DNA of 46,803 nt from IMG/VR virus record IMGVR_UViG_3300032235_000373, positions 1-46,803 of that record, one strand, 5' to 3'. The stretch comes from a virus. Position 1 is the stretch's first letter, and each line of letters begins with the position of its first letter. The position numbers were made by a program, and so were the translations under genes. Of the stretch, positions 7,132-27,731 are shown one piece after another. Below the pieces are notes generated by a model, which saw only the letters and a program-made list of their open reading frames with translations, was not told where the DNA came from and did no database searches.

Positions 7132-8511
7132 TTAAATTGTTTGATTTTCTCTTTGTTGTCTAGCCCTAAACGCTTCTACCGCTCTGTTTGCTCTGTCTTG
7201 TGTCTTTTGTTCTTCATGACCAAGTAAAGTATTTTGACTATCGGTATCAATAATTAACATTTTATTATCGAATTTACAATTTTGGAATATAATTCCATCT
7301 TGTCCAATACGTGATTTTAATAAACTTAACGTTGCTAAGTTATGTTCTTTCTGTTCTAATGTCTTAGCTATAGAAATAATAACGTGTGCAATTTGAGCTT
7401 TCTTAATTGAACCACCCATTTGGTCACTTGTTACAACCTCTGATGAGATTGAATCTCTACTACCTTGTGTTGCCGTCCAAATCGCCATGTTAAACTCAGT
7501 TGTCATAGATTCAAGACTTCTCATAACAGAACCTTCACCTTTCCATTCTTCACCGTTAACACTCTTATCTGTACTAACACAGTCAACATAATCCAAAATC
7601 AACATATCAGGTACAAATCCTTCTGAGATTAGTTTTCTAATTTTTGATTTAATCTTAGATATGGTTGCATCATCACTTGACATCTTAATCATTTTCAAAA
7701 CACCTTTAGAACGAGCCTGAGCTTCAAGTACTTTTTCTTTTACCTCCTCAGCGTATTCAGGTTGGTCATCCGGTTCAACATTTGTCCAAATGGTAAAGTG
7801 TTTTCTTCTTACGTTATCACGATTATCTTCAAAGAAGATTTGTAACACATTGAAGTCATTGTTAAATGCGGTGTTTGCAAACTTGGTTAAGATTGTTGTC
7901 TTACCGGTACCAGTCGGTGCCAAGATAATACCCAATTCACCACGTCCCAATCCACCTTTCAATAAATTATCAATACCCACAATACCTGTTGGGATTGGTA
8001 ATCTAAAATCTTTTTCTAATGCCGAATCAATATCATGAAACACATCAACAATATCATTATCATCGGTACCAACTTGTAATGCCTTCTGAATGATTTGTTC
8101 GATTTTATGGTACTCCTCAAAGTTACCATTTTCAATAATGTGGTTAACGTTTTTTAATTCCTTTTTAAGATTTTGTTGCTTACAGAAGTTCAACGCTCTG
8201 TCTTTTACAAAGTGTGTGTCTTTGTCATCGTTTTTGATTTGCTCTAACGTGTCAATGTGAATACGGTTTGAATCCTTATTCCCACTTTCCGACATGATTT
8301 TTTGAGCAATTGTATCATAATTTGGAATCTTACCATAAGATGAATACAATTCTTTCACATTTTCGATAATATATCTAAATGAATTGTTATCAAAAAACTT
8401 TGTTTCCAAAACTTCGATAATGGTATCACCATATTTTCTATCCTCAATAATCGCCTTTAACAACGATTGTTGAAAGGAAAATCCTAGGTGTCCAAAATTT
8501 CTTTCTTCCAT
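7132..8511 (-). CDS. Replicative DNA helicase, DnaB/T4 gp41 type
   Basis: The product is 459 aa. The N-terminal half (about 1-150) is alpha-helical as in DnaB-type primase-binding domains. The RecA-like ATPase follows: GIVGIDNLLKGGLGRGELG, Walker A APTGTGKTT (about 198-206), FEDNRDNVRRKH, Walker B DMLILDYVDCV, and the sensor region ATQGSRDSIS then DQMGGSIKKAQIAHVIISI. This is the hexameric 5'-3' helicase that unwinds the fork. It sits between an unknown 148-aa gene and nrdB in the replication operon. No primase gene is recognisable in the window. Confidence 0.9.
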   Translation of the reverse strand: MEERNFGHLGFSFQQSLLKAIIEDRKYGDTIIEVLETKFFDNNSFRYIIENVKELYSSYGKIPNYDTIAQKIMSESGNKDSNRIHIDTLEQIKNDDKDTHFVKDRALNFCKQQNLKKELKNVNHIIENGNFEEYHKIEQIIQKALQVGTDDNDIVDVFHDIDSALEKDFRLPIPTGIVGIDNLLKGGLGRGELGIILAPTGTGKTTILTKFANTAFNNDFNVLQIFFEDNRDNVRRKHFTIWTNVEPDDQPEYAEEVKEKVLEAQARSKGVLKMIKMSSDDATISKIKSKIRKLISEGFVPDMLILDYVDCVSTDKSVNGEEWKGEGSVMRSLESMTTEFNMAIWTATQGSRDSISSEVVTSDQMGGSIKKAQIAHVIISIAKTLEQKEHNLATLSLLKSRIGQDGIIFQNCKFDNKMLIIDTDSQNTLLGHEEQKTQDRANRAVEAFRARQQRENQTI

Positions 8512-24278: not shown

Positions 24279-26228
24279 TTATTTTCCTTTCTTATTTGCA
24301 ATATCTACTTGAGTCCATTCTTTTGGATTTACACTTGCAAAAGATACTGCCGGGTTTCTTTTAATAACTTCTTTATAATAATCACCAGGAACGTCAGCCG
24401 CTTTAATATTAATTTCGTGTTCAACTTTTTGTACTGATGGTTCTTGTTTTTGTGACGGTTTTTTTGTGTCGTAATCAAATGTCTTACCAAGATATTTGTC
24501 TAAATTTGAAACAACATCAATTATTTCACCATTTGCAAATTTTCTAGCCACTTTTGCACCTTCTTTCATTGCGATTTTAGCGTCGGCTTTGGGAACTATA
24601 CTTTTAATATCATCTCTCATTTTACTAACCAATTTACCAAGACCTTCATTTACACCTCCTTTAATAAAATTTGCAGCCTGTATTTTTGCCCATGTGGCAA
24701 CAACATCCATATCTCTACTCATCTGTTGTAATTCCGTGAGTTGTTTTTGTGCCATGTCGGCCGGACTCATTTTTTCAAACTCTTTTTGGTTTTTAAGTAA
24801 TGCGTCTGCGGTTTTTTGGTCTAATTTATCTAATGCCAATTCAGTTGGAACACCTAATTTAGCTGCAATTGATTCGGGAACCATAATTTTCATTTCCCCA
24901 CCATCCATTCTACTTAAATTTGTGAGGAATTCTTTATCCTTTTCCTCAATATTAAGACCTCGTGACATTAAGGCGGTTGATGCTGCCATTCTTTCTTGAG
25001 CGGCAATTGCACTATTTGTAAGTTCTTTATAATCAACACCCAATGCTGCTGACATTTCTTTTGCTCTTCTTAAGTTTATACCTGTAATCTCAAATCTTCC
25101 TTGTTCTTTATTATATGTTGCAAGTCCTTTAGCAGCACCAATTAATGAGTCTTGTAATCCCTCAACGTTATTGGTAGCATCATACATCATCTTAATAGGG
25201 TCCCCAAAGTCACCAATTGCACCACCCAAAACTTGTAGGTTGGCTGCTAAGTCAATAGCACCTTCTGGATTTAATACTTTATCTGCGATTGCTGCAACAG
25301 AATCCATACTAATTTTAAACTCAATGGACTTTTGAACCATCCTTTCTAAACCTTGTATTCCGTTTTTGAATCCATATTGGTTAAGTTTACCAATATTTTC
25401 TTCCATCCCCTTTGCCACTTTTTGAGCATTTAATCCCAAACTAACAGCTCTGACACCAGCCTCACCTAACGACTTAAGGGTTTTATCTGCACCAAGTCCA
25501 ACATTTTCAAAAGTTGACACAGTTGTTGCCAACTCTCCCATTGTTTTACCTAATTGTGCAGCAACAGGTGCAGCATTATCTAATGTCTTTTTATTTATTA
25601 ACGCAAACTTACCACTACTATCAGACATGTTGGTATAAAATTCCGCCAAATTTTCAAGTTCAAACCCATATTTTTTTGCTTCGGCCTGTGCGGATATCAT
25701 GTCAGAATTTAACTCTTTAGTTAATTCTCCACTCATACCAATTTTTGTACTAATATCAGTATATATTTTTGATTGTGCAGATAGTTGATTCATGGCTTCG
25801 CCGCCCGCAGTTTCAAGTATTTTTTTAACGGTATCTCTTGAAAATCCACTTTTTAAAATATCAAATACCTTTAATGCTGCGGTATTATCCTCAGGTCTTC
25901 CTAATTGTGACTTATAAAGCTCTTCACTAATATTAGCTGCGGTGTTTATACCTTTATTAACTAAACCAACTGCACCTTTTAATACATCGGTAAATCCTCC
26001 CGTGAAACTACCACCACTTGGGGATTCATTAGTTGATGACGGTGATGATGAACTACTACCTGATGATGCTGATGAACTATTACTTGTTTTTTTAAGCCAA
26101 AAATTTGTTAAATCAGCACCTTCGTTTGTATTTGGTTTACGTCCATACTCTCTCTCGAAATCGACATTTAATTGTGCTGCCGATTTAGCGTCATTTACTA
26201 TTTGTTTAATTGATTTTGGAGAAGCCAT
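24279..26228 (-). CDS. Tape measure-like tail protein
   Basis: The product is 649 aa; T4 gp29 is 590 aa. The N-terminal helix is followed by a Ser-rich linker (about 50-75), then a long helical body with many Ala, Lys, Glu and Gly. A central hydrophobic Gly/Ala-rich part contains NLQVLGGAIGDFGDPIKMM. Tape measure proteins fill the tube, set tail length and are ejected on infection. At about 1.5 Angstrom per residue this predicts a tail near 95-100 nm. The position directly after the chaperone pair and before baseplate genes is the standard place. A late box ends 3 nt before the ATG. Confidence 0.75.
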   Translation of the reverse strand: MASPKSIKQIVNDAKSAAQLNVDFEREYGRKPNTNEGADLTNFWLKKTSNSSSASSGSSSSSPSSTNESPSGGSFTGGFTDVLKGAVGLVNKGINTAANISEELYKSQLGRPEDNTAALKVFDILKSGFSRDTVKKILETAGGEAMNQLSAQSKIYTDISTKIGMSGELTKELNSDMISAQAEAKKYGFELENLAEFYTNMSDSSGKFALINKKTLDNAAPVAAQLGKTMGELATTVSTFENVGLGADKTLKSLGEAGVRAVSLGLNAQKVAKGMEENIGKLNQYGFKNGIQGLERMVQKSIEFKISMDSVAAIADKVLNPEGAIDLAANLQVLGGAIGDFGDPIKMMYDATNNVEGLQDSLIGAAKGLATYNKEQGRFEITGINLRRAKEMSAALGVDYKELTNSAIAAQERMAASTALMSRGLNIEEKDKEFLTNLSRMDGGEMKIMVPESIAAKLGVPTELALDKLDQKTADALLKNQKEFEKMSPADMAQKQLTELQQMSRDMDVVATWAKIQAANFIKGGVNEGLGKLVSKMRDDIKSIVPKADAKIAMKEGAKVARKFANGEIIDVVSNLDKYLGKTFDYDTKKPSQKQEPSVQKVEHEINIKAADVPGDYYKEVIKRNPAVSFASVNPKEWTQVDIANKKGK

Positions 26229-26245: not shown

Positions 26246-26428
26246 TTAATTATTTTCTGATTCTAATTCAATAATATAATTAACATAATACCTTCTCAAA
26301 TATATTGGCATGTTTAAAAGGTCTCCATAATTGAAACCTTTTTTCACTAAAAATAAAATTTCGTCTAATTGATTTTTCCTATATTCCGTAGAAAGGACGA
26401 AAAAACTCAACCCCGAACCCAATTTCAA
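26246..26428 (-). CDS. Second tail-assembly chaperone frame (gp51-like), no ATG start
   Basis: The conserved-looking part is KKGFNYGDLLNMPIYLRRYY with VNYIIELESENN, similar to small proteins encoded next to gp26 in T4-like phages (FsYGdL..MPiYe.ryy). The frame is open from just after a stop near 26455 and overlaps the 249-aa gene, whose stop is at 26379. It has no ATG before that motif. Possible starts are TTG at 26428 (60 aa) or GTG at 26347 (33 aa). Alternatively the frame is entered by +1/-2 slippage on TTTTTTC at 26399-26405, giving a 293-aa fusion. Location between tube and tape measure matches the G/GT chaperone pair of long-tailed phages. Confidence 0.6.
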   Translation of the reverse strand: MKLGSGLSFFVLSTEYRKNQLDEILFLVKKGFNYGDLLNMPIYLRRYYVNYIIELESENN

Positions 26429-27128
26429 TTTGGATTGTGTCTCCTGACGGGGTATTTATATTTTGGACTAAGTCTAATCCGGGTTTATTTTCGTTTATAA
26501 ATTTTCTAAAATCTTGTGAATCTTTTATTGGTAATCTATCAATAAAGTTTTTAATATTCATTAAGTCTTTATTTCCACCAACAGATTTAATCATAAATTC
26601 AAGTTGTTTTGTTATAATTGGTGCCACACCAATACCATTCCAACTTTTTCTTATTTCATCAATTTCTTTTTCTTGTTTAACCGTTAAAAAATTAAAAGTA
26701 ATATCAACATTACTTTTTTTCATAAAATAAGAATATTCACCATTTTCATTAATTTCCAATTTAAAGTCTTTTATTTTAATTGTTTCTAAACTAATTTCGG
26801 CTTGAAATTGTGTATCGGTTTTTGGGTCAGTTGCGGTTACGGTATACTCTGAACCGAATGCGGTATTTCTTAAAAATATTAGAATAGCCTGTCTATCTTC
26901 TTCAATAATTTCTTCGATTGGTAAATCTTTATCTAAAATTTTTCTTTTTAGTAATTCTTCAACTACTCCACCGGAATTAATTAAACTACTTGATGATAAA
27001 ATATTCTCATCCGAAGCTGTTAAGTAACTTACTCTAACAGATTTTTTATTATTTTTGTAGTAAATTCCTTTACTTGGTAATTCAACTACATCATATGCGA
27101 TAGTTGGGTCTATTCTGTATTCTTCCAT
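26379..27128 (-). CDS. T4 gp26-like baseplate hub/tail assembly chaperone
   Basis: The product is 249 aa; T4 gp26 is 208 aa. Family features are VELPSKGIYYKNNKKSVRVS, TASDENILSSSSLINSGGVV, and IEEDRQAILIFLRNTAFGSE. These are followed by a beta hairpin where T4-like members often carry a cysteine zinc knuckle; here the cysteines are absent (ATDPKTDTQFQ). The C-terminal helical half contains VKQEKEIDEIRKSWNGIG. It lies between the tube and tape measure genes, and its 3' end overlaps a second frame. A short stem (AACTATA 27130-27136 / TATAGTT 27149-27155) immediately precedes the start and may limit initiation. Confidence 0.72.
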   Translation of the reverse strand: MEEYRIDPTIAYDVVELPSKGIYYKNNKKSVRVSYLTASDENILSSSSLINSGGVVEELLKRKILDKDLPIEEIIEEDRQAILIFLRNTAFGSEYTVTATDPKTDTQFQAEISLETIKIKDFKLEINENGEYSYFMKKSNVDITFNFLTVKQEKEIDEIRKSWNGIGVAPIITKQLEFMIKSVGGNKDLMNIKNFIDRLPIKDSQDFRKFINENKPGLDLVQNINTPSGDTIQIEIGFGVEFFRPFYGI

Positions 27129-27242: not shown

Positions 27243-27731
27243 TTAGTAAACTTGGATACATCTATCCATTCTCAATCCACAAGTAATTGAAGCAATTGCA
27301 TCTTGGCTATAATCCAATGTTCCAAAATCTAAACTTGTTAAGAATGTTCCTTGGATAATCCATTTCTCCACAACAACACCTGTTGGGTCTAACATTTCTA
27401 ATTCAATATCTTTCTTATAACCTGCAGCGTATCCCATACGACCAGTAACTGATTCTGCATGTAAACGGAACCATTCCATCAAAGCTTGTGAAGCTGAAGG
27501 TCCAATTGGGTCCTTAAATGTAACAGTCATTTCATCCCAAGTAAATCTACCAGCAACATATGTTGACGTATTTAAAAATGGAATTTCAGTTGATGTGATT
27601 TTAGCTGAAGGTCTTTTAGTTGATGTAACATACCATTCGTTGATACCCATAGATGAGGGGAATCGTAGAATAAATCTATTTTGTCTTTTCGGTTCAAATG
27701 GAACCGGCATTTTCATTAGTAAATCTGCCAT
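27243..27731 (-). CDS. Tail tube protein, T4 gp19-like
   Basis: The product is 162 aa; T4 gp19 is 163 aa. The sequence has the gp19 pattern PVPFEPKRQNRFILRFPSSM, then TKRPSAKITSTEIPFLNTST and RFTWDEMTVTFKDPIGPSAS, followed by WIIQGTFLTSLDFGTLDYSQ. It polymerises into the inner tube that penetrates the cell envelope. It stands alone between terminators, with an A-rich leader and two candidate late boxes upstream (27767 and 27928), as expected for a highly expressed gene. Confidence 0.92.
   Translation of the reverse strand: MADLLMKMPVPFEPKRQNRFILRFPSSMGINEWYVTSTKRPSAKITSTEIPFLNTSTYVAGRFTWDEMTVTFKDPIGPSASQALMEWFRLHAESVTGRMGYAAGYKKDIELEMLDPTGVVVEKWIIQGTFLTSLDFGTLDYSQDAIASITCGLRMDRCIQVY

Follow-up and report, generated by a model that had tools for sequence, protein, structure and literature searches.

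In a large family of T4-like phages, the long form of the tail assembly chaperone appears, from sequence comparison, to be produced by a +1 slip of the ribosome at a UUU codon. We describe the case of IMG/VR virus record IMGVR_UViG_3300032235_000373 (positions 1 to 46,803; ‘the window’ below is this whole stretch of 46,803 nucleotides (nt)), in which a gp26-like tail assembly chaperone gene (TAC-N) is overlapped by a second open reading frame (ORF) for a small C-terminal domain (TAC-C). With a probability that we put at roughly 0.84, the pair is expressed by a programmed +1 ribosomal frameshift in which the slip runs from UUU to UUC, an mRNA hairpin upstream of the slip site favours forward movement, and both TAC-N and the fusion, TAC-NC, are made.

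Results

The second frame stays open from about 26453 down to its end at 26246 and lies +1 (equivalently -2) to the gp26-like frame. It has no ATG until a C-terminal ‘MP’, and its earliest possible start, a TTG at 26428, gives a 50-nt overlap with the gp26-like gene. TAC-N ends in GVEFFRPFYGI, with the final codons GTT GAG TTT TTT CGT CCT TTC TAC GGA ATA TAG, and a slip at TTT-C would join 243 and 50 residues into a fusion of 293 amino acids (aa). The predicted junction peptide of this fusion in the window phage is GVEFFVLSTEYR; in Flavobacterium phage immuto the predicted +1 junction is a ...GLAFFGLTPEYR-type sequence. A preliminary description of the window had proposed a +1/-2 frameshift here, and the window sequence bears out the frame relation and the lack of an ATG near the beginning of the second frame; the overlap, the reading GAG TTT TTT CGT, the position of the run (26399-26405) and the length of the fusion had also been given correctly. 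In profile searches TAC-N matches PF12322 (T4_baseplate) at 31.7 bits (E 1.6e-7), above the curated cut-off of 24.5 for this T4 gp26 family, and phrog_150 (baseplate hub) with an E value of 4.4e-11.

An initial search gave 44 relatives from IMG/VR at 56-80% identity, and each alignment search yielded at least 560 matches, with the best 80 per scan retained. Relative loci carry L-numbers (L002-L298 and so on), and counts were made on 186 distinct sequences, 106 of the window type and 80 of a sister type that includes immuto, Microcystis phage Mel-JY01 and, more remotely, Rhodothermus phage RM378, Bacillus phage SP-15 and Streptococcus phage SagM-GXN1. The +1 arrangement is present in 181 of the 186 (window type 104/106, sister type 77/80), and the overlap, the TTTTTTC run and the lack of a proper start codon, whose conservation the preliminary description had named as a check, are all conserved. 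Together with selection on the +1 frame (below), this supports its proposal of a programmed event as far as sequence can. Of the two window-type exceptions, L010 carries a TGA, probably a sequence error, 16 nt from the contig end. The other (L045) lies on a 251-kb contig on which gp26 is broken in several places in a read-error-like manner; we considered it as a natural in-frame fusion and rejected it for these breaks, which make apparent fusions from such contigs misleading. In two remote relatives (L187 and L218) the +1 site is lost, the same TAC-C domain lies in the -1 frame, and the last 40 nt of the gp26-like gene hold A_AAT_TTC, which fits the -1 heptamer pattern. Hence the fusion is kept and its direction is not, and the slip appears, from these sequences, to have switched from +1 to -1.

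The P-site TTT is found in all 73 nonredundant window-group relatives and the preceding TTT in 72 of them. TTT CGN occurs in frame once in the 13,208 codons of the window ORFs, at the slip site itself, whereas the product of codon frequencies predicts about four, so the site is more than a chance occurrence. Every +1 member has TTT or CTT at the junction, with T or C as the next base. The site is TTT TTT CGN in the window group, with few exceptions (TTC TTT CGC in L279, TTT TTT CTC in L265), and mainly TTT TTT TGG or TTT TTT TAC in the sister group; the A-site codons across members are CGN, UGG, UAC, UAU, CAC or CUN. Several sites have short T runs, namely TTC TTT CGC (L279), TTC TTT CGT (SagM-GXN1), AAC TTT CTA, TTC TTT TGG (L141, L206, L214) and TTT CTT TGG (immuto, L140, L143). 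These let UUU or CUU re-pair one base forward, which favours +1 over both a -2 shift and polymerase slippage.

Codons with a single difference 3' of the zero-frame stop show 1.59 synonymous changes per nonsynonymous change in the +1 frame against 0.13 and 0.19 in the other frames; the counts are pairwise and not phylogenetically independent, and the contrast is large. By this sequence measure, TAC-C is under purifying selection in the +1 frame only. No ATG, GTG or TTG precedes the TAC-C core in 17/73 window-group and 28/77 sister-group nonredundant members (45/150 in total), and in one member (L116) the entire +1 frame is devoid of these codons. Members that read GTA GAR have a +1-frame TAG immediately 5' of the slip site, which confines the frame change to the last codons of the gp26-like gene.

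Immediately 5' of the slip site we found a conserved hairpin (Table 1), which the preliminary description had missed. Synonymous sites are frozen there in the window group (GGG 73/73, GGA 73/73, TCA 69/73, ACC or GCC 72/73), and GGG is fixed even though it is not the preferred glycine codon. The pattern (A/G)CCCC(R) pairs with (Y)GGGGU at a fixed spacing; CCCC is at the right distance in 70/70 motif sites, and the outer stem is part of the minimum free energy (MFE) fold in 72/73 of the window group and in 57/57 additional sequences that had been found by the slip motif and the 3' arm alone. The arms of the inner stem vary in sequence among relatives, with pairing retained in more than one register. 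Against resampled synonymous codons, which preserve the protein and its codon usage, the 48 nt before the GAN codon have a mean z of -2.55 in the window group, with all members below -1, and of -2.60 in the additional sequences.

RNAalifold predicts the outer stem, and neither any of 500 shuffles nor any slid version equals it in paired cells or covariation score. Within the 117-nt region, covariation is strongest for the pair -40/-7 (numbered from the GAN codon), which is G-C in 32 sequences, A-U in 32, G-U in 5 and something else in 4. The tree implies 10 changes at the first of these sites and 13 at the second; well supported branches by themselves hold too few changes for a sign test. Simulated independent evolution reached the observed association in 0 of 3,000 runs in this first set, and a dependent model gains 16 log-likelihood units. 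The association weakens (phi 0.48, p 0.0015) in an enlarged set of 122, which includes sequences found by the slip motif and the 3' arm alone; A-C mismatches number 4 in that set, against an expectation of 17.8.

The sister group has a hairpin at the same place (mean z -2.15 over 77 sequences) built from many unrelated stems, such as GACGGUC/GACCGUC, UGUACCG/CGGUACA, UCUGCCG/CGGCAGA and CGCAUCC/GGAUGCG, whose 3' arms mostly end about 4-8 nt before the P-site codon. When the analysis is slid along the sequence, a mean MFE z of -2.14 in the window group and of -1.95 in the sister group is confined to the stretch that ends at the site, and no comparable structure signal was found elsewhere in the last 230 nt before it. 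No downstream stimulatory structure was found either: the consensus fold from -72 to +45 consists of the upstream stem and a 3-bp hairpin over the slip site.

The AGGAGA of the hairpin bulge is as conserved as the stem in the window-type loci (L002-L298), in a genome that barely uses Shine-Dalgarno (SD) sequences; neither initiation nor a pseudoknot explains it. A pseudoknot of AGGAGA with a downstream CCUUUC was rejected, since AGGAGA persists in L035, L279 and L292, where the partner is lost.

Discussion

The +1 relation and its conservation, the purifying selection, the lack of starts in many members and the conservation of the hairpin are read from the sequences, and from them we infer the slipping itself, its rate, the paused codon, the stimulatory action of the hairpin and the chaperone function. 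Most ribosomes would complete the short chaperone of 249 aa. A fraction would pause with peptidyl-tRNA-Phe on the P-site UUU and the slow codon CGU in the A site, and tRNA-Phe, with its expected GAA anticodon, could then re-pair from UUU to UUC one base on, UUC being read at least as well. The ribosome would proceed into TAC-C and yield the 293-aa TAC-NC, and both products may assist the loading of tail tube protein onto the tape measure. The hairpin would refold at the exit side of the ribosome and favour forward movement, the role that the internal SD helix has in prfB. In work with designed mRNAs and 70S ribosomes, +1 shifting was stimulated and -1 shifting attenuated when a hairpin abutted the E site; such hairpins mimic the internal SD helix, and their effect rises with hairpin stability and is seen only without RF2 (Huang, Cho and Chang, PMC6321510). 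The conserved hairpin described here is placed similarly.

Only 1 of the 29 predicted starts in the window has an SD-like motif (start 12431), from which the phage is predicted to initiate essentially without SD. The same count suggests an SD-poor, Bacteroidota-like host; a host search of bacterial genomes did not find a relative. In such a host, an mRNA hairpin could be a natural substitute for the internal SD. GGGGU does sit at the place of an internal SD in the window group, but it pairs with CCCC and is absent in many sister-group members. We lean towards regarding these sites as a natural, conserved class of +1 frameshifting in which a hairpin behind the ribosome drives the slip, instead of an SD-rRNA helix or a downstream structure, and replaces the prfB-type internal SD in SD-poor hosts.

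Several observations weigh against this reading and against the frameshift as a whole. The covariation comes mainly from one base pair, at which G-U is common in the enlarged set, and the CCCC/GGGG pairs are invariant. A stable hairpin is missing in SP-15, SagM-GXN1 and some sister members (for example L162, L165 and L155). In vitro, the designed hairpin acted only with an unfilled A site (PMC6321510), whereas a sense codon occupies the A site here. Finally, the overlap contains at least one TTG, GTG or ATG in about three-quarters of the window-type members.

Such codons could make TAC-C a separate small gene, expressed from a TTG or GTG start or by translational coupling at the gp26-like stop. 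The window offers TTG at 26428, 26422 and 26410 with AGGAG (26445-26441) upstream, and in LR756511 (L130) an ATG overlaps the stop, which makes a separate gene possible there. We consider it very unlikely as a general explanation, given the 45 nonredundant members without a usable start, the stop just 5' of the slip site in the GTA GAR members and the rarity of SD motifs in the window; it would also leave the conservation of slip site and hairpin unexplained. If RNA polymerase slipped on the T run, mRNAs lacking one U would let an ordinary ribosome read the fusion, and T6 and T7 are indeed the commonest runs and a one-base deletion gives the same protein. This is scarcely credible for a family that keeps the +1 arrangement at TTC TTT CGC, TTC TTT TGG, TTT CTT TGG and TTT CTA, where only three or four T remain, and the model has no need of an upstream hairpin.

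A ribosomal shift of -2 has the same frame arithmetic as +1, and tRNA-Phe could re-pair two bases back within T6. At TTC TTT sites, however, it would land on UCU, a mismatch, and the pairing is also poor at TTT CTA and CTT TGG, so that a -2 shift is highly improbable. Of the +1/-2 alternatives left side by side in the preliminary description, the first is therefore the one retained, given that the TTC TTT and TTT CTT sites permit +1 re-pairing and offer no good -2 slip. It is also conceivable, although we regard it as unlikely, that the frameshift is real and the hairpin serves another purpose, such as mRNA stability or processing, or is a by-product of codon choice. The stimulatory role is deduced from conservation and position, and the bulge is conserved to the same degree as the stem; but two groups with unrelated stems place the hairpin at the same position next to the slip site, the last 230 nt hold no signal of similar strength, and the signal persists against controls that keep protein and codon usage.

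The arrangement resembles several known systems. As in lambda gpG/gpGT, a short and a frameshifted long chaperone are encoded between the tube and tape measure genes; the lambda shift is -1. The X_XXY_YYZ pattern of the lambda and cyanophage type does not apply to the family at large, with a -1 relation only in L187, L218 and P-SSM4. In prfB (RF2), a YUU P-site codon likewise slips one base forward with an upstream duplex adjoining the site, and the sister-group TTT CTT TGG C resembles the CUU UGA C of prfB; here, an mRNA hairpin and a sense codon take part instead. The core of the +1 site of influenza A PA-X, UUU_CGU, is identical to that of the window. PA-X is an unrelated gene read by a eukaryotic ribosome, and we know of no upstream hairpin for it. 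Engineered refolding hairpins also abut the E site and stimulate +1 shifting on 70S ribosomes (PMC6321510, PMC3639245); those are designed reporters, whereas the present hairpin is natural and conserved, with a predicted effect.

The preliminary description had held that such fusions do not occur in T4. By contrast, PMC12846349 and PMC10885494 cite Vladimirov et al. 2022 for gp26/gp51 as the T4 chaperones and for frameshifting among several T4-like groups; PF12322 matches both T4 gp26 and gp51, in line with that work as cited. T4-like TAC-N/TAC-NC pairs, as cited there, share with the present one a gp26-family short form near the tape measure gene and a long form with a small C-terminal domain. 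T4 itself differs in having separate genes 26 and 51, and cyanophage P-SSM4 in that its gp26-family gene (L134, record positions 7648-8400) is overlapped by a -1-frame second ORF; for poly-T sites, PMC12846349 describes -1 shifting. What sets the present case apart from these systems is the +1 shift and the upstream hairpin. A +1 shift in a chaperone is not unheard of, given that it is listed as very likely in the archaeal virus HSTV-2 (review, PMC5009743). The +1 direction in this phage group and the hairpin appear to be new: we found no description of either this shift or a natural upstream hairpin stimulator in the literature searched, in which Vladimirov et al. 2022 is represented through citing papers.

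One gene family thus arrives at seemingly the same product by separate genes (T4), by -1 shifts (cyanophages, L187 and L218) and by a +1 shift. With hundreds of natural variants in which a hairpin precedes a +1 site, it becomes possible to test whether the direction of frameshifting is set by RNA that refolds behind the ribosome.

Genomic context and annotation

The pair lies between the tail tube and tape-measure-like genes (Table 1), with the same order in immuto and SP-15, where the place of the latter gene carries the annotation tail tape measure protein. Profile searches, including PHROG, found no family match for the 24279-26228 product itself. Both this gene position and a conserved overlapping second ORF in another frame without a proper start of its own are features of G/GT-type pairs.

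Table 1 Features of the chaperone gene pair and its surroundings in the window.
Feature	Positions	Strand	Remarks
TAC-N, gp26-like tail assembly chaperone	26379-27128	minus	249 aa; zero-frame product
TAC-C, +1-frame C-terminal domain	26246-26401	minus	from TTC at 26401 to TAA ending at 26246
Putative slip site UUU_UUU_C	26399-26405	minus	T run 26405-26400, C at 26399
P-site UUU; zero-frame A-site codon CGU	26402-26400; 26399-26397	minus
Outer stem, 5' arm ACCCCG	26448-26453	minus	CCCC invariant; covariation, synonymous-site constraint
Outer stem, 3' arm CGGGGT	26410-26415	minus	ends 7 nt before P-site UUU
Inner stem, 5' arm TCCAA	26430-26434	minus	inner hairpin mean z -2.1 against synonymous resampling
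Inner stem, 3' arm TTGGG	26418-26422	minus	pairs with TCCAA
AGGAGA	26440-26445	minus	in 5' bulge of hairpin; nearly invariant, GGA 73/73 and TCA 69/73 at synonymous sites
Tail tube protein	27243-27731	minus	upstream of the pair; phrog_4542, E 8.6e-24
Tape-measure-like protein	24279-26228	minus	649 aa; immediately 3' of the pair; assigned by position

The structures of TAC-N and TAC-C were predicted separately. The TAC-C model is confident and helical (pLDDT 92), and that of TAC-N reaches a pLDDT of only 70. Compared with the PDB, the TAC-N model gave no significant fold match to solved chaperones (HK97 chaperone, E 1.7), and the TAC-C fold search returned insignificant matches only, including the Moogle and BonaeVitae chaperones. 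The fusion did not match T4 gp51 or gp26 significantly in profile comparisons, although the gp51 tail aligns by eye.

TAC-C has been overlooked or fragmented in public genomes, and its annotation can now be corrected. Small ‘hypothetical proteins’ are annotated after the baseplate hub gene in immuto (QQO92150.1; L124:3854-3964), SP-15 (L128:2312-2431) and Mel-JY01 (WWT39326.1; L125:3776-4012), and these appear to be fragments of the frameshifted TAC-C or versions of it with a guessed start.
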